Source of the DNA: a virus
Strand: one strand, 5' to 3'
Length of the DNA: 20,083 nucleotides
IMG/VR virus record: IMGVR_UViG_3300047546_001223
Span: 1 to 20,083 of that record
In this document: in pieces, positions 3,757 through 15,748 of the stretch
Layout of the letters: each line of letters opens with the position of its first letter
Position numbering within the stretch: the first letter of the stretch is position 1
Notes under the pieces: generated by a model
What the model saw: the letters and a program-made list of their open reading frames with translations, nothing else
Database searches by the model: none
What the model was told of the DNA's origin: nothing
Made by a program: the position numbers and the translations under genes

Positions 3757-4328
3757 GTGTCTTTCCTCTGTGTAGCCGCAATATTTTTAGAGTATAAAAA
3801 TAATTGTAGCGTGTATCTTGTATTTGATTCTACATTGGTAACTTGATGATCAGCGCCAATAGTGTAGTTATCATAGTATGCATATATACCTTTATTTAAA
3901 GCGGGTTCAACTATATGGGCTGTATCACCTTCCCACCAAATAAATTTGCCACCATCAAATGCAGATAAAAATACAGTTAAACTAAAGATACAGTTGTCGG
4001 TATGTTTATATATTGAACTACCAACGGGCATTTTTTGTATGGCTATATCACAATGTTTGAGCCATGTTTTTTTATAACACGGAAGCGTTGCGTTCTCATA
4101 CAATTCGTACAATATTTGTGCTTTATCGTTGCCAACTATATCACACGTAAAGCATTCAACTGCTGTTTTATTGTTTGTTACCTCAGCAGGCCAAACATCA
4201 TAACTGCTTTTATCAACGGGCAAAGGTTTGGTATAAGATTTTAATATTGTTAAAACCTTATCAGAAAAAACGTTATTGATCACATTGAAACGTTTATTTT
4301 CCAATCGCGTTGCCATAAATGTGGACAT
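3753..4328 (-). CDS. 2-oxoglutarate/Fe(II)-dependent oxygenase
   Basis: 191 aa from the chosen start. The double-stranded beta-helix iron-binding facial triad is visible as H109xD111 (KHTDNC) and H161 (GADHQV), with R171 (NTRYTLQLFL) positioned to bind 2-oxoglutarate. The segment FSLTVFLSAFDGGKFIWWEGD is typical of prolyl-4-hydroxylase-like members common in marine T4-like phages. The substrate is unknown; protein or nucleic-acid hydroxylation are both possible. The start is ambiguous: ATG at 4328, 4316 or 4370, or TTG at 4376. All overlap the 3' end of queE, and none has a strong ribosome site, so coupling to queE translation is likely. Confidence 0.8.
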   Translation of the reverse strand: MSTFMATRLENKRFNVINNVFSDKVLTILKSYTKPLPVDKSSYDVWPAEVTNNKTAVECFTCDIVGNDKAQILYELYENATLPCYKKTWLKHCDIAIQKMPVGSSIYKHTDNCIFSLTVFLSAFDGGKFIWWEGDTAHIVEPALNKGIYAYYDNYTIGADHQVTNVESNTRYTLQLFLYSKNIAATQRKDT

Positions 4329-5181
4329 GTACTCTGCTTGTGTAATTATAGCCTTTTTGTATAGACTCATCAGCAATCATAGCTTCGGTGATCTTTAATC
4401 CTTCTAAAGTGCCGCCTACCCCCATGATCCAAACTGGAAAATCGCAGCCAGCTTGTCGGAACCGATCAACGTTGTCTTCAACTTCTTGCCAACTGGCTTT
4501 ACTGCCATTGACAACAAATTTTAATTGTCCGTGTCGGCTTGTTTTTGCATAAGCACCTACTACATCAGGAACAATAGCTTTCTTTGCTTTCTCGCCTGCT
4601 GTGCTCCACAGCTTAGGACTTATACTCCAATACCAATCTCCACCATGCTTGAAAAAGTATTCATCAATAAACTTTTCAAGCTCTGGGGTAATAGGTTGAG
4701 TACCGTTAGTCTCAACAGTAACATTCTTTGGCAAATTATCTCTGCTTGCAAACTCTTTAAGAATAGCAATCATACCTTCTTGTGATTTTTTCAACATAGG
4801 TTCACCACCAGTGAATACCATATGTGTCCATTGCTTGCTCTTAGGATGTTGAAACTTGCCGCCCGGTAATAATGCTGTTAGGCTATCAACTGTTTCTTCT
4901 ACAGTTTTGTCAGTCATTAAGTGTTTGAAACGCTTACTCCATGTATAACTACTATCGCAGCCTTTATCAAATACAGGTAAATCCTCAACACGTTTAATAC
5001 TGCTAATATCTACAGTCTCATACGGCAGTTGATAGGTCTTAGGATTGGTTGGGTCTGTTTGACCAAACCCATTGCATTGCAGGTTACACATAAAGAATCG
5101 CAACCATAGACTTGGGATGCCTACATATTTGCCTTCACCTTGTGCGCTATAAAAGATTTCGCTATATTTTAAATTAGTCAT
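4294..5181 (-). CDS. queE: QueE, 7-carboxy-7-deazaguanine synthase (radical SAM)
   Basis: 295 aa. Converts 6-carboxy-tetrahydropterin to 7-carboxy-7-deazaguanine using a 4Fe-4S cluster and SAM. The N-terminus EIFYSAQGEGKYVGIPSLWLRF is a QueE hallmark for substrate binding. Cluster cysteines are C32 and C36 (CNLQC), with the third probably C75 in CDSSYTW; 38 residues separate the last two, whereas canonical QueE has 2. TGGEP at about 124 binds SAM, and VETNGT and SISPKL follow as in the family. It overlaps the upstream 178-aa gene by 8 nt. folE lies just upstream, and queD and dpdA about 8 kb away, supporting a 7-deazaguanine pathway. Confidence 0.9.
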   Translation of the reverse strand: MTNLKYSEIFYSAQGEGKYVGIPSLWLRFFMCNLQCNGFGQTDPTNPKTYQLPYETVDISSIKRVEDLPVFDKGCDSSYTWSKRFKHLMTDKTVEETVDSLTALLPGGKFQHPKSKQWTHMVFTGGEPMLKKSQEGMIAILKEFASRDNLPKNVTVETNGTQPITPELEKFIDEYFFKHGGDWYWSISPKLWSTAGEKAKKAIVPDVVGAYAKTSRHGQLKFVVNGSKASWQEVEDNVDRFRQAGCDFPVWIMGVGGTLEGLKITEAMIADESIQKGYNYTSRVHVHIYGNAIGK

Positions 5182-5710
5182 TTGTGGCTCTTTTAAAAAG
5201 TGTGTTTATGTCTAATACATTTAGTATATCGTCAACCGAACCAACCTTACTATATGCTTCAATAAATGCACTATATATTTTTACGTGCAATTCAGAATTA
5301 GTATAATCTGACGACCCTTGTTTAATGTCGGCGAGACATTCGCTAATGACTGTCATTAAGCCTTCAGCAAACAAGTTTTGAATATTAGTTTCTTCAGGGC
5401 AGAATGTTTTGCCGTGGCTCACAAGCATAAAAAATATTCTGTCAGTGATGCCAACAGTTTCAATATTAATATCTTCAATTGTATTTCCTGCTTGATCGCA
5501 CTTCAACTCAATAAAGTCATTTTCGTGTGGTTCAGTTAGATCAATTAAAGCATCAATACATTCAAATATTTCTTCAACCGTAATTGGATATCTAGTTAAT
5601 AACCATGTTACATCTTTGTGTTCTGTAACAGCGTCCCAGATTTCTTTAACTAGTACGCCTGAACTTTGTAGTGTAAGTAGGTTTCGAGGCCCGCGGGCAA
5701 CAATTGTCAC
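5174..5710 (-). CDS. hypothetical protein, 178 aa, between folE and queE
   Basis: Acidic soluble protein with no motif I recognise. The N-terminus MTIVARGPRNLLTLQSSG is basic and the rest is largely helical with many Asp and Glu (DALIDLTEPHENDFIELKCD). It has no membrane span. The start is GTG at 5708-5710, supported by AAAGGAG about 7 nt upstream. It ends 8 nt inside queE and begins 12 nt after the folE stop. The location between two 7-deazaguanine biosynthesis genes could mean an accessory role, but that is positional inference only. Confidence 0.65.
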   Translation of the reverse strand: MTIVARGPRNLLTLQSSGVLVKEIWDAVTEHKDVTWLLTRYPITVEEIFECIDALIDLTEPHENDFIELKCDQAGNTIEDINIETVGITDRIFFMLVSHGKTFCPEETNIQNLFAEGLMTVISECLADIKQGSSDYTNSELHVKIYSAFIEAYSKVGSVDDILNVLDINTLFKRATND

Positions 5711-5722
5711 AGCAGTTCTCCT

Positions 5723-6397
5723 TTACTGCTTGTTAACAATGTTCATGAATTCTGTACGCACCGCTGGATCAGTTTTAAAGTAACCACCTAGCTTACTTGT
5801 TACAGTACTTGAACCAACATCTTCAACACCTCTGCTTTTAACACAATAATGTTGTGCATCAATTACAACTGCAACATTTTCAGTCTCGAGAATAAAACTT
5901 AATGCATGATAAACTTGTTCTGTTAAACGCTCTTGAATTTGAGGACGTTTGCTAAAGTATTCAACGATGCGATTGATCTTTGAAAGGCCTAGTACTTTTT
6001 GTTTAGGAATATATGCTACAGTAGCCTTACCGTCAATTACTACGAAATGGTGTTCGCAGTTACTCTGTACGTTAACATTGCGTTCAATTACCATTTCGTC
6101 GTACTTCATCTTGTTATCAACTGTGGTACACTTAGGGAAAGCATCGTAGTCTAGCCCCCAAAAGATTTCATTAACATACATCTTTGCTACACGCTTGGGT
6201 GTATCAATTAGACTATCATCAGTTAGGTCTAAGCCTAAAGCTCGCATGATCTCAGCAAAGTTACCCTCGATGATATCGATCTGCTCTTTGCGATCTAGAT
6301 TGCGTTTTTTGATTGGGGTTTCCACACCCATTTTGACTAGGTGTTCGTGGACTTGACGTCCTAATTCGGGATCAGTTTTAGTTTTATTAAATGACAT
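5723..6397 (-). CDS. folE: GTP cyclohydrolase I
   Basis: 224 aa, normal length for the family. Catalyses GTP to dihydroneopterin triphosphate plus formate, the first step of both folate and 7-deazaguanine synthesis. Zinc ligands are visible: C114 and H117 in CEHHFVVIDGKATVAYIP, and C185 in IDAQHYCVKSRG. The block VLGLSKINRIVEYFSKRPQ matches closely the bacterial enzyme, and GSSTVTSKLGGYF near 195 forms part of the active site. The start has a perfect AAGGAG about 6 nt before the ATG. Directly upstream lie a sigma70-type promoter and a T4-type late promoter, so expression may begin early and be renewed late. Confidence 0.95.
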   Translation of the reverse strand: MSFNKTKTDPELGRQVHEHLVKMGVETPIKKRNLDRKEQIDIIEGNFAEIMRALGLDLTDDSLIDTPKRVAKMYVNEIFWGLDYDAFPKCTTVDNKMKYDEMVIERNVNVQSNCEHHFVVIDGKATVAYIPKQKVLGLSKINRIVEYFSKRPQIQERLTEQVYHALSFILETENVAVVIDAQHYCVKSRGVEDVGSSTVTSKLGGYFKTDPAVRTEFMNIVNKQ

Positions 6398-10511: not shown

Positions 10512-10692
10512 TGTTTCTTTTCCTGTGTTTTTTATCTGTGTCGTCTGTTAGATCACCATAATCTACAATATGGGTGATTGGATCGCCTAGTGTTTGTGCA
10601 TAGTTATTTAGGCGATCAGCGGTGTCCCTATCAACTTTTTCAGGTTGATTGGTCAACGCTTTATTGTTACTATCTTTGTTATTTTCAATCAT
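10504..10692 (-). CDS. hypothetical small charged protein, 62 aa
   Basis: Highly polar, Asn/Asp/Lys-rich and probably mostly disordered, ending in a basic tail (KKHRKRNNA). No recognised domain. Its ATG overlaps the stop of the Bax-inhibitor-like gene (ATGA) and its end overlaps the glycosyltransferase start by 8 nt, so coupling on both sides supports it as a real gene. No strong ribosome site of its own is visible. Confidence 0.6.
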   Translation of the reverse strand: MIENNKDSNNKALTNQPEKVDRDTADRLNNYAQTLGDPITHIVDYGDLTDDTDKKHRKRNNA

Positions 10693-11372
10693 TTTCTATT
10701 GCCAAATAACGATAGCAAGTTCAAAAACAAATTAATAAAATCTAGGTACAATGTTAGCGCACCTGTGATCTCAGCACTATCATCAAAATTACCATACATA
10801 ATCTGTTCGCGAATCTTTTGTGTATCGTATGCGGTTAGTCCAAGAAAGATAATAATAGCTAGCCCGCTGATAACCATAGCCATAAGACTGCTACCAACAA
10901 ACATATTAATAAGACTGGCAATGATGATAGCAATAAGACCAACAAACATAAACTGACCAATGCTATCAAGATTTTTCTTCGTAAAATATCCATATACACT
11001 CAATGTCCCAAAAAGTACCGCTGCACCCATAAAAGCACTAAAAATACTGGCCATTGTGTATACAGCAAAAATAGTTGCAAAACTTAGTCCCATAAGCCCT
11101 GCAAAGCTATGCAACACTAGCAATTTACCAGTGCGTCCAATTCCTGAATTAAGCAGGACTGGCACAGCAAAGATAAATGCTAGCGGTGCAAATATCACAA
11201 TCCATTTAGTAAATCCTGTAAAAAAGAATTGTAACAATTCAGGCGAAGTGCCTACCAAATAGCTTACAATCATGCTTGTGAGTACAGCAAAGAACATATT
11301 GCTATAAACCTTAGCCATTGCAAGATTAATTTCACTTGCAGTATTAAATCCAACATTATTACTAAATGACAT
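10689..11372 (-). CDS. Bax inhibitor-1 / YccA-YbhL family membrane protein
   Basis: 227 aa with about seven hydrophobic spans (roughly residues 27-42, 57-75, 83-103, 106-128, 141-160, 163-182 and 205-222). The C-terminal hallmark is GLTAYDTQKIRE followed by ALTLYLDFINLFLNLLSLFG, characteristic of the UPF0005/TMBIM family, which includes bacterial YccA (an inhibitor and substrate of the FtsH protease) and pH-sensitive Ca2+ leak channels. In a phage it could protect membrane proteins or modulate the host inner membrane; this is inference. The start has a perfect AAGGAG about 8 nt upstream and lies 11 nt after the histone-like gene, so the two are coexpressed. Confidence 0.9.
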   Translation of the reverse strand: MSFSNNVGFNTASEINLAMAKVYSNMFFAVLTSMIVSYLVGTSPELLQFFFTGFTKWIVIFAPLAFIFAVPVLLNSGIGRTGKLLVLHSFAGLMGLSFATIFAVYTMASIFSAFMGAAVLFGTLSVYGYFTKKNLDSIGQFMFVGLIAIIIASLINMFVGSSLMAMVISGLAIIIFLGLTAYDTQKIREQIMYGNFDDSAEITGALTLYLDFINLFLNLLSLFGNRK

Positions 11373-11383
11373 TGTAATACTCC

Positions 11384-11572
11384 TTAGGCTGCGCTGGCAG
11401 CGTTCTTTTTATCTTGAATCTCGGCACGACGAACTTTAGTTAGCTTGCCAAGTTCGCCTAAAGCCTTACGTGCGCGAGCAGCCGCAGCCTTCACGCCCTT
11501 AACTTCAAATGCTTCGGATTCTTTAAGATATTCATCAAACAAAGTTTTCATTTTTAAATGTGTTTCAGTCAT
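11384..11572 (-). CDS. histone H1/Hc1-like DNA-binding protein
   Basis: 62-aa Lys/Ala-rich protein. Its centre, VKGVKAAAARARKALGELGKL, and following KVRRAEIQ match the short Hc1-like pattern (N-terminal helix, then a KGxKxAxxRxRKxLxxLxKL helix) seen in Chlamydia Hc1-related bacterial and phage proteins that bind and compact DNA. I chose the ATG at 11570-11572 because AAGGAG precedes it by 7 nt; an in-frame ATG at 11587 overlaps the radical SAM stop. A promoter candidate ends about 20 nt upstream. It may act on host or phage DNA early in infection, which is inference. Confidence 0.75.
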   Translation of the reverse strand: MTETHLKMKTLFDEYLKESEAFEVKGVKAAAARARKALGELGKLTKVRRAEIQDKKNAASAA

Positions 11573-11583
11573 GTTTTTCTCCT

Positions 11584-12723
11584 TCATTGTATATTAATAG
11601 ATAATTCAGGAAATGTCAACGAAAAATCCTGCTTTCTAATATTATCTAAAAATTTAACCTCTTTAACAAATTCATCAAAGTTGCCAATTTCTAGATCTAA
11701 GTAGCTACTTAATTGTCTTACATTATCGTATTCAGAATTAAGTAACTTATCCTTTATAATTTTTTTTGTTGTGCTGTTATGCACAGACGGGTGATAGTTT
11801 GGTTTTAGTGATACTATACCAAACCAAGGCTGCGGCAAGTTTTCTTTGTCGCACCATTTGGCAAATGAATCGGCATAAAAAATTGTAAAAGCCGAAACAG
11901 TATACGAAATACTTAGGGTTATGTTATTGTTTTGTTCTTTTAATTCCTGGAATAGTTTTATGTTCTTATATACTTTATTCCATTTTGCAGGCCAACGGTT
12001 ATACTCAAATCTATCTTCAATGTCATCTATACTAATTTGTATTTCGACATGCTTAAACTGTTGCCATACATTTCTATATTCTTCGTTAGGGAAAATGGTT
12101 CCATTGGTAGTGTAGTGTAAGGATATATCATTACTGTTACCTGCATCAACAAACTTGCTTAGGTACACAAGATGTTCCTTGAAACTGGTTAGAAATGGTT
12201 CCCCGCCGATTATATTAATAACTTTGGCATTTTTAGAATATTCGTACAAATCATCTATATACTTTGGATTTGTGTGCCAATCAAATACAGTAGCAGTTGT
12301 TGTTGGGTTTATTTTCTTTTCTTCTGTAACCCACGAGCTACTAGCCCATGGCCCACATATTCTACATGCTAAATTACATAAATTATTGAACGCTATAGCA
12401 ACGATCGAAAAGTCTTTTTCTTTCAGCGATAGATTTTTTAAACGATCTTGGTGAATTCTATTGTCACGTTGTCTTTTACTTTCTATACCAACTAATTCAT
12501 CGCTCCAACAACGACTACATCCATCGGGACGTTTACCTGATAAAAACTCGTATTGCAGTGACTTGAGCCATGCGCTGTTTCTGTACGCTTTGATACCGTG
12601 TGTTACGTTAAAGTTTGGTATATATTTTGAATCAAATTTGAAACAAGGTTTTACTGTGCCTCGCTGACTAACATCGAGGCCGGTAAATGCATTATAGCAA
12701 AAATTTTCAGATGGTAGATTAAT
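11584..12723 (-). CDS. N-twitch radical SAM enzyme with probable ATT start
   Basis: 379 aa if started at ATT (12723-12721). The N-terminal domain has C9 (ENFCYNAFTG), C27 (VKPCFKF), and C69 and C72 (DGCSRCWSDE), an auxiliary Fe-S 'twitch' arrangement placed before the radical SAM core, as in the N-terminal-twitch family. The core motif is CNLACRIC (C116, C120, C123), and IIGGEPF follows at 171-177. The nearest ATG or TTG is TTG at 12249, which would remove every cluster cysteine. The ATT has AAAGG (12736-12732) 8 nt upstream, and NLPSENFCY looks like the usual family N-terminus. The substrate is unknown. It lies directly after queD, so a role in deazaguanine tailoring is possible. Confidence 0.8.
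   Translation of the reverse strand: MNLPSENFCYNAFTGLDVSQRGTVKPCFKFDSKYIPNFNVTHGIKAYRNSAWLKSLQYEFLSGKRPDGCSRCWSDELVGIESKRQRDNRIHQDRLKNLSLKEKDFSIVAIAFNNLCNLACRICGPWASSSWVTEEKKINPTTTATVFDWHTNPKYIDDLYEYSKNAKVINIIGGEPFLTSFKEHLVYLSKFVDAGNSNDISLHYTTNGTIFPNEEYRNVWQQFKHVEIQISIDDIEDRFEYNRWPAKWNKVYKNIKLFQELKEQNNNITLSISYTVSAFTIFYADSFAKWCDKENLPQPWFGIVSLKPNYHPSVHNSTTKKIIKDKLLNSEYDNVRQLSSYLDLEIGNFDEFVKEVKFLDNIRKQDFSLTFPELSINIQ
11591..11619 (-). promoter_or_regulatory. sigma70-like promoter for histone-like/Bax-inhibitor genes
   Basis: TTGACA (11619-11614), 17 nt, TAATAT (11596-11591), minus strand, inside the last codons of the radical SAM gene. The -10 box matches only 4/6. The predicted start near 11584 would give a leader of about 12 nt that still contains the AAGGAG of the histone-like gene. 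Confidence 0.55.
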
Positions 12724-12731
12724 AGCAAAAA

Positions 12732-12736
12732 CCTTT
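12732..12736 (-). promoter_or_regulatory. ribosome binding site deciding the ATT start
   Basis: AAAGG on the minus strand, 8 nt before the ATT at 12723-12721. It overlaps the queD stop at 12738-12740 closely, matching the tight spacing elsewhere in this genome. Confidence 0.55.
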
Positions 12737-12737
12737 A

Positions 12738-13148
12738 TTATCTAAAATATGTTGGACCGTCTACTTGCCAATCCTCTGTGGGTTTGGGGAAGTCAATCTC
12801 GCAACCGTTTTCATTATCTTCGGCTACGCTAATCTTTAGCCAACGATTGGGATAGCGTTCCTTAATCGTCTTTGCTAAATCTTCTGCGATCATCTCACAG
12901 CTCTTGTGATTTAGTTCTAGTACACCCTGACTGTACTGGCGTTCCATCCAACGCTTAAACTGAATAAATTCAATGTCTCGATCGTCGTGAAACACTTCAA
13001 TCCAAACCTTGAAATGGAAAATGTGCCTGTGTGGCACACCTAGAAAACTTACATCATCCCAGTCGCCTGTGGCTAACTTAGGATCAGTGTCGGCACCCGG
13101 ATACATATGGATGCCTTCTTTCTGGAAGGTAACCCAGATACTTTTCAT
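12738..13148 (-). CDS. queD: QueD/PTPS-like 6-carboxy-tetrahydropterin synthase
   Basis: 136 aa from the ATG at 13146-13148, which overlaps the upstream stop (ATGA) and has AGGAG 8 nt upstream. The tunnelling fold pattern is visible: H14 (KEGIHMYP), then VPHRHIFHFKVWIEV with H40 and H42 as the probable zinc pair, LNHKSCEMIAEDLAKTI with H81, and SVAEDNENGC with E110. In QueD, these bind zinc and pterin and convert dihydroneopterin triphosphate to 6-carboxy-tetrahydropterin. The canonical CxxxHGH is altered: Leu occupies the catalytic Cys position and Arg replaces Gly, so the chemistry may differ or C84 may substitute. FolE upstream in the pathway and QueE downstream are both in the window. Confidence 0.8.
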   Translation of the reverse strand: MKSIWVTFQKEGIHMYPGADTDPKLATGDWDDVSFLGVPHRHIFHFKVWIEVFHDDRDIEFIQFKRWMERQYSQGVLELNHKSCEMIAEDLAKTIKERYPNRWLKISVAEDNENGCEIDFPKPTEDWQVDGPTYFR

Positions 13149-13330
13149 TTTTTCATCTCCTCGTAGATACCTTCTTTTACTTCGTCGGGCAATACCCAAC
13201 CGGCCTTTTCAAAAAATGTAAGCATTTTGATAAACAATCGCTTTACACTTTCGTTATTATTAAAGTCAACATCAGTTTCCATTAAACTGCGAAAACCGTC
13301 ATCATCTTTTGTTTCTATTCTAATTTTCAT
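13145..13330 (-). CDS. hypothetical protein, 61 aa
   Basis: Small acidic protein starting MKIRIETKDDDGFRSLMETD, with a helical second half (VKRLFIKMLTFFEKAGWVL). Not recognised. Its stop overlaps the queD ATG (ATGA), indicating translational coupling. The start has no clear Shine-Dalgarno; a 12-bp palindrome lies immediately upstream. It could be a small partner of QueD, but only position suggests this. Confidence 0.6.
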   Translation of the reverse strand: MKIRIETKDDDGFRSLMETDVDFNNNESVKRLFIKMLTFFEKAGWVLPDEVKEGIYEEMKK

Positions 13331-14188: not shown

Positions 14189-15748
14189 TTACATCTCAAA
14201 AAAAGCGTCTAATATTTCTTCTTTAGTGCCATCATCATCGCCACCTAGACTCAAATGCGATAAAAATTCATTATAGTCTTTGATCATTTGTCTTGCATTA
14301 GGATTGGCCGGGTCAAGAACATCCTTAGCAAAACTACGGAAGTACAAAATATTAACAGGAACGTAAGGAGAAACTTCATTGGCCTTTGATGACTTCTTTG
14401 ATGGCTTCTTCCAATGCTTGTAGTCTACAGTCTCACGATATGCTTCAACATCTGCAAGACGGTTTGCTTCTTGTACAGCATCAATATGATTGAATACACT
14501 ATGACCCATATAATATAGATAGCTCAGCGTATCCCAACTTGTGCTGTCGCGTTCAGCAAACATTTCATTACCGTTGGCATCTAACTTAGGCTTGCCTTCC
14601 TTGTCTAGTAAAGGTTGCCCTTCAGCTAACTTTGCTTTACCGTTTTTATCTAAATCTCCTGCTGACATTACACATAGGTCTCCCATTGTTAAACGACTCA
14701 TCACAGGACTATGACCAAATGGTGCTGGTAGATCACTACCCTTTAGTGCTTGCTGATCAAATGCACGATCCATAAAGTAACCAAATTTTCCTGGCTCAAA
14801 AAAGTTATGAGCATAGGTCTGTCCGTATGCTGTATTAACAAATGGACTCGCGGCATCAAAACTTAATGTAATATGTGGATTATCATGTACACGTAGTTCG
14901 CGCTGAATAGCTGTTAGATAGCAAGCCCATTGTAGTTTACCTGTACCAAGAAAGTGAATCCAATCCTTATCTTCCAACAAACCATCTTCGCGTAAGTCTA
15001 ACAGTCGGTTAAGTACGCAACTTAGATCCTTCATGTTAATACCTGCAAACGCATAGCCTTCTAAGGTGCGTGATGCATCATCGTACACTTCTGCTACAAA
15101 TGACTTATTGCTAAAGTGCTTGACACTTTCGTACCACTGCTTACTGGTTGCTTCGTCTGTGCCTGAAATAACGTTTAGAAACTTTGTTGCGCCCGGTGTG
15201 CGGTTACGCATAAAGTAATCTAAGTTAAGCAAACTGATGTCCAGTGTATCTTGAAAACTAGTTAAACCTGTTTTTTTGCTTAGTGGTTCTACAGCCGCAA
15301 ACGCAGGAATATCCAACGTCATGCTCCAGTCTGCTGTATGCTCTAGCCACTTTAGAATATCGTTGCAGATTTTAGTACGTGCAGGATCGTTTGGATCCTT
15401 AGCGTTCTTCCAATCAAGTTTTAGAACACCAGTTGCGATCTGGAATCCGCCCGAGTCACCGAGGATAGTTGTGTAACTGCGGTCCCGCTTCTGGACCATT
15501 GCTTCCTCAACATCACTCTTAGCAGGATCTAAATGAGCATGCCCTGCAGAATAAAGTCCGTATGGATAATGATAATAGCTGTCATTCTTCTTTAAGAAAT
15601 CAAGCCCGCCGTTGCCAAACTCAAAGCCTGCAGGAATACGCCAATCGCTTGGATTATCTACAGCCTTCTGTAATTGTTTTGTATAGAAACTGCTGATTGC
15701 GGGCAAGTAAACAGCATAATCTTTTTGACGTTTTCCAAAGTCTGTCAT
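14189..15748 (-). CDS. dpdA: DpdA-like TGT-family DNA guanine transglycosylase
   Basis: 519 aa with the tRNA-guanine transglycosylase barrel signature: LGDSGGFQ (D98 to Q103, substrate-binding Asp and SGGFQ loop), WSMTLDIPA near 141-149, HFLGTGKLQWAC near 265-276, and LSFDAASPF at 295-303, where D298 fits the nucleophilic Asp. It lacks the CxCxxC zinc motif of bacterial tRNA TGT and is longer, features expected of DpdA proteins that insert 7-deazaguanine bases in DNA. Residues 366-395 are two copies of a 15-residue unit. It begins 1 nt after the clamp stop with AAGAG about 8 nt upstream, so it is cotranscribed with replication genes. A tRNA-acting or archaeal-type TGT is less likely in this context. 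Confidence 0.85.
   Translation of the reverse strand: MTDFGKRQKDYAVYLPAISSFYTKQLQKAVDNPSDWRIPAGFEFGNGGLDFLKKNDSYYHYPYGLYSAGHAHLDPAKSDVEEAMVQKRDRSYTTILGDSGGFQIATGVLKLDWKNAKDPNDPARTKICNDILKWLEHTADWSMTLDIPAFAAVEPLSKKTGLTSFQDTLDISLLNLDYFMRNRTPGATKFLNVISGTDEATSKQWYESVKHFSNKSFVAEVYDDASRTLEGYAFAGINMKDLSCVLNRLLDLREDGLLEDKDWIHFLGTGKLQWACYLTAIQRELRVHDNPHITLSFDAASPFVNTAYGQTYAHNFFEPGKFGYFMDRAFDQQALKGSDLPAPFGHSPVMSRLTMGDLCVMSAGDLDKNGKAKLAEGQPLLDKEGKPKLDANGNEMFAERDSTSWDTLSYLYYMGHSVFNHIDAVQEANRLADVEAYRETVDYKHWKKPSKKSSKANEVSPYVPVNILYFRSFAKDVLDPANPNARQMIKDYNEFLSHLSLGGDDDGTKEEILDAFFEM
14564..14653 (-). repeat. two tandem 15-residue units inside DpdA
   Basis: Residues 366-380 (DKNGKAKLAEGQPLL) and 381-395 (DKEGKPKLDANGNEM) share DKxGKxKLxxGxxxL/M. 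They lie after the barrel motifs and look like an exposed, charged loop insertion. Confidence 0.6.

Follow-up and report, generated by a model that had tools for sequence, protein, structure and literature searches.

A cassette-borne N-twitch radical SAM gene with ATT at its probable start site in an uncultured T4-type phage

A radical SAM gene in an uncultured T4-type phage very probably starts at a codon that is ATG in its closest homologue and ATT in the only contig from which the gene is known. We give about an even chance to what we regard as the most likely reading, namely that this ATT is a genuine, weak AUU start at the homologous position of a recently captured and intact gene. The gene lies in a 20-kb IMG/VR virus record (IMGVR_UViG_3300047546_001223), a metagenome consensus contig that we analysed over its 20,083 nucleotides and refer to as the window. 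The window DNA polymerase has its nearest counterparts in large T4-type phages (47% to Sinorhizobium phage Phosso), and megablast found no match to the whole window among isolate phages. The features discussed below are collected in Table 1.

Table 1. Coordinates in the window of the radical SAM gene, its start region and its neighbours
Feature	Coordinates	Strand	Basis or remark
N_Twi_rSAM radical SAM gene	11584..12723	-	379 codons from ATT; NF033640, Pfam Radical_SAM, AlphaFold2
ATT codon at the homologue's ATG position	12721..12723	-	Gap-free alignment with L172
AAAGG, candidate Shine-Dalgarno (SD), 8 nt before ATT	12732..12736	-	Sequence; duplex energy with standard anti-SD
Gene-bearing insertion of ~1,153 bp, absent from close relatives, AAGG on both flanks	11583..12735	-	Empty sites in relatives
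Upstream gene, phrog_17812, function unknown	12738..13166	-	Stop TAA 12738-12740, 14 nt before ATT
Downstream Hc1-like (histone H1-like) gene, 62 aa	11384..11572	-	Pfam PF07432
First conventional start of the frame, TTG, implausible as start	12247..12249	-	Costs half of the SAM barrel and seven cysteines

An apparently intact N-twitch radical SAM protein

The protein matched NCBIfam NF033640 (N_Twi_rSAM) with 287.8 bits, for a cut-off of 170, over positions 1-395 of the 398 of the profile, and Pfam Radical_SAM matched as well. This full-length match bears out the N-twitch radical SAM identity that the original prediction had read from the letters. The CX3CX2C motif is formed by C116, C120 and C123 in CNLACRIC, and it is preceded by a set of N-terminal residues (C9, G22-X4-C27 and C69-X2-C72) that resembles a twitch/SPASM site; all are invariant in the family alignment. 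The order of a C-X12-G-X4-C ... C-X2-C region followed by the CX3CX2C core is that of N_Twi_rSAM proteins, a family common in related phages. The gene differs from the family in having ATT instead of a conventional start, and the protein in carrying Phe in place of the second Cys of the PCC pair (C28F). An AlphaFold2 model built from a 13-sequence alignment had a pLDDT of 85 and a pTM of 0.85; confidence was high from about residue 5 onward, and residues 1-3 alone scored under 50. Its best fold matches in BFVD were phage radical SAM proteins (TM ~0.8), and those in the PDB, restricted to the core, were SPASM maturases, BlsE and viperins. A sequence search of the PDB with the protein gave no match, and no cellular homologue was confirmed in the genome contigs searched.

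The gene looks intact, with no sign of decay, because the protein departs from only 2 columns that are invariant in the 12 other aligned relatives (an I-to-V change and C28F), as compared with 0-5 such departures in the relatives themselves; 53 columns are fully invariant. A very recent loss of the start would be invisible to such a comparison.

On related T4-type contigs, N_Twi_rSAM paralogues are clustered in groups of about 5-21, as in G020:C1:3561-39680. The contigs concerned (G001, G005, G006, G014, G015, G018, G019 and G020) are those behind the loci L017, L019, L110, L122, L120, L118, L032 and L059. One T4-like genome from TARA has already been reported to hold 12 radical SAM genes (PMC5332604), and we came across no function stated for such phage arrays.

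Position of the start

The open frame runs on the minus strand from the codon after TAG (12742-12744) to the TGA at 11584-11586 and begins ATA ATA AAG GTT TTT GCT ATT AAT CTA CCA TCT GAA AAT TTT TGC. As predicted, it contains neither ATG nor GTG before the radical SAM motif, and TTG is absent from that part too. The prediction was equally right about the first conventional start, a TTG from which translation would forgo the enzyme's first half, with C9, C27, C69, C72, C116, C120 and C123, and keep the single later Cys, C291. Gene finders limited to ATG, GTG and TTG would thus miss the enzyme or truncate it badly.

Homologues were collected from IMG/VR and isolate phages, and family arrays from related contigs. 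In all, 104 distinct family frames were aligned on the first conserved Cys, and a conventional start was sought within 40 codons upstream. An ATG was present in 97 of them and only GTG or TTG in six; the window frame was the single one (1/104) with none of the three, and its ATT was shared by no relative. The ATG of the family mostly stands 1-10 codons before the first conserved Cys, and the ATT of the window 8 codons before it. In L172, the closest homologue (56% identical), the ATG likewise stands 8 codons before, and in L002 (50%) 9 codons before. The original prediction had proposed to see whether the ATG of homologues falls on the ATT codon, and that of L172 does align with it gap-free (INLPSENFCYNAFTGLD / MSSNSKTFCYNAFTGLD). 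The N-terminus read from this codon is (M)NLPSENFCYNAF... Taken with the distances seen in the family, the gap-free L172 alignment places the start very probably at the ATT; since family residues before the first Cys are unconserved, the exact codon hinges on this one homologue and on the spacing of the SD.

The AAAGG noted in the original prediction does lie 8 nt upstream of the ATT, and AAGG, 8 nt and ATT reproduce the spacing of the next gene (AAGG, 8 nt, ATG). We would put the chance of an in-frame ATN codon within usable distance of an AAGG at 10-20% as an uncalculated estimate, which is not very unlikely in AT-rich DNA. The weight of the ATT site therefore comes from the gap-free match to the L172 ATG and from the rarity, one in the 104 family frames, of a missing conventional start. 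Pairing with the anti-SD was -3.8 kcal/mol for the ATT gene. Most genes of the window lie between about -4 and -9, and a few pair more weakly than the ATT gene (the MazG-like, QueE, rSAM 6496 and 14189 genes). The predicted RNA fold at the start region was in no way unusual (z = -0.08).

A cassette at a cargo hotspot

The radical SAM gene is missing from eleven close relatives, in which its flanking genes abut, TAATA being joined to GGAG...ATG, so that DNA left of 11583 meets DNA right of 12736. The empty site reads TAATA followed by GGAGAAAAACATG in L017, L093, L018, L110, L100, L016, L099 and L012, and is similar in L014, L106 and L019. As a longer read, TAATA followed by GGAGAAAAACATGAC, it occurs in L017, L018, L110, L100 and L016, with similar versions in L093, L099, L012, L014, L106 and L019. 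The two neighbours are 14-19 nt apart in close relatives and 646-1,735 nt apart at several loci that are more distant, where other cargo fills the interval. Abutting flanks on the one hand and other cargo at the same site on the other show that the gene is a cassette of ~1.15 kb that close relatives lack, inserted at a cargo hotspot. The cassette is bordered by AAGG on either side, each AAGG being followed by 8 nt and then by the ATT of the radical SAM gene or the ATG of the Hc1-like gene; the SD of the latter (AAGG, 11581-11584) overlaps the end of the inserted gene. The third-position G+C of the gene is 0.29, as compared with 0.32-0.43 in eight other window genes.

The same hotspot, between the phrog_17812 and Hc1-like genes (11384-13166 in the window), was also seen in L027, L032, L111, L031, L043 and L117. 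Judged by eye, its cargo in other phages consists of sulfotransferase-like genes, of an SDR gene with a radical SAM gene, or of unknown genes. The arrangement resembles phage cargo (moron) sites in that one phage has the cassette and eleven close relatives lack it, with other cargo in more distant ones; it differs from them in that the window cassette has no demonstrated promoter or terminator of its own. A decamer, TTTTTGCTAT, occurs twice across the start region (12722-12731 and 12694-12703), 28 nt apart. Such a repeat has a chance of ~0.3% under a Markov model, yet 1% of real 60-nt stretches have one, and it is possibly a junction scar or a chance occurrence.

Is the ATT a functional start?

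AUU starts are established in E. coli infC and pcnB. That of pcnB is cited in a study of Staphylococcus aureus, where AUU and AUA starts (AUU in cvfC1, AUA in infC and ccpN) are conserved and preceded by extended SDs, and where the AUU of cvfC1 yields, in poor medium, ~10% of the output of AUG (PMC13009471). The window gene resembles these genes in that an ATN codon occupies the expected start position behind an SD. It differs in that theirs are conserved or experimentally shown, and in S. aureus the SDs are strong and extended (PMC13009471); the window gene is known from one contig, its SD is modest and its ATT is not conserved. An AUU at the homologous start behind an SD is found here, and its conservation among relatives is not.

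The ATT is known from a single contig of an uncultured phage. Two exact patterns and peptide patterns retrieved no close DNA copy of the gene from IMG/VR, a search that may have omitted very near records. A start-codon screen covered ~1,287 conserved frames of related contigs. Those that clearly combined a conserved N-terminus with the lack of a conventional start were the window gene and L224:3022-3702; they make up ~0.16% of the frames, a figure to which genuine rare starts and errors both contribute. Most other flagged frames were rejected as antisense shadows or interrupted frames, and L118 as an alignment artefact; none of the other window genes was flagged as startless or interrupted. 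The L224 frame sits beside a radical SAM gene in another phage; its conserved N-terminus is preceded by 40 codons devoid of ATG, GTG and TTG, and ATT ATT codons occur near the expected start.

The strongest competitor, which we hold to be a serious if clearly less probable possibility, is that the genome has an ordinary ATG and the contig a one-base consensus error or private variant, the gene being ordinary. The ATT falls exactly on the ATG of the homologue, is one base away from ATG and stands at a perfect distance from the SD; the contig is a consensus built from a metagenome, no second copy was found, and the choice of the window out of a large scan makes rare errors more likely. On the other hand, consensus errors seldom occur in short-read assemblies, and the other genes of the window show no interruption. 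Alternatively, the start may have been lost when the cassette was inserted, ATT being a chance codon in a gene that is silent or beginning to decay. The insertion junction lies only 12 nt upstream of the ATT, the decamer repeat could be its scar and the SD pairing is weak. Still, we think this unlikely, for the open frame is complete, nearly all family-invariant residues are kept, and both the ribosome-binding site spacing and the alignment with the L172 ATG hold.

The original prediction had also pointed to infC and a few other genes, whose ATT starts allow IF3-based control. AUU starts that throttle expression do have a precedent (PMC13009471), yet IF3 regulation finds no support here, because no homologue has ATT and the SD is ordinary and of modest strength; the usual fold of the start region and the recent insertion also argue against an evolved regulatory start, which we regard as improbable. 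Least probable of all, to the point of being hardly credible, is a start elsewhere. Two ATA codons, 12739-12741 and 12736-12738, are in frame, but both lie upstream of the SD or at it. A frameshift from the upstream gene was rejected: it would need to take place at AGA-TAA, after the TAG at 12742-12744, and no slippery sequence is found.

On the reading that we favour, an intact N-twitch radical SAM gene was captured as a cassette at the variable cargo site between the phrog_17812 and Hc1-like genes, and its ATT would be genuine and act as a weak start in the phage. The AAGG 8 nt upstream may position the initiator tRNA on it, and ribosomes fresh from termination 14 nt upstream may assist. Expression would then be low, at roughly a tenth of that from an ATG start or less, and this may suffice for an enzyme. 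A more specific version, to which we attach a rather low probability, is that the cassette was captured behind a resident-like ribosome-binding site and is truly translated from AUU, which would hold down the dose of an Fe-S enzyme that may be costly. Were the start real, a phage cargo gene would join the short list of AUU starts and would exemplify a captured gene expressed weakly from an imperfect start. Were it an error, it would mark a class of falsely 'startless' genes in viral metagenomes, amounting to ~0.1-0.2% of conserved frames in our sample.

Other genes of the window

The Hc1 gene (11384-11572, PF07432) is adjoined at 10689-11372 by a gene whose product is a membrane protein of the Bax1-I family (PF01027, 167 bits). 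Farther away, QueE-like and FolE genes and a gene for a 519-aa protein are found at 4294-6397 and 14189-15748. The 519-aa protein has a TGT-like DSGGFQ motif and no family match. Together, the QueE-like, FolE and DSGGFQ-motif genes suggest 7-deazaguanine DNA modification.
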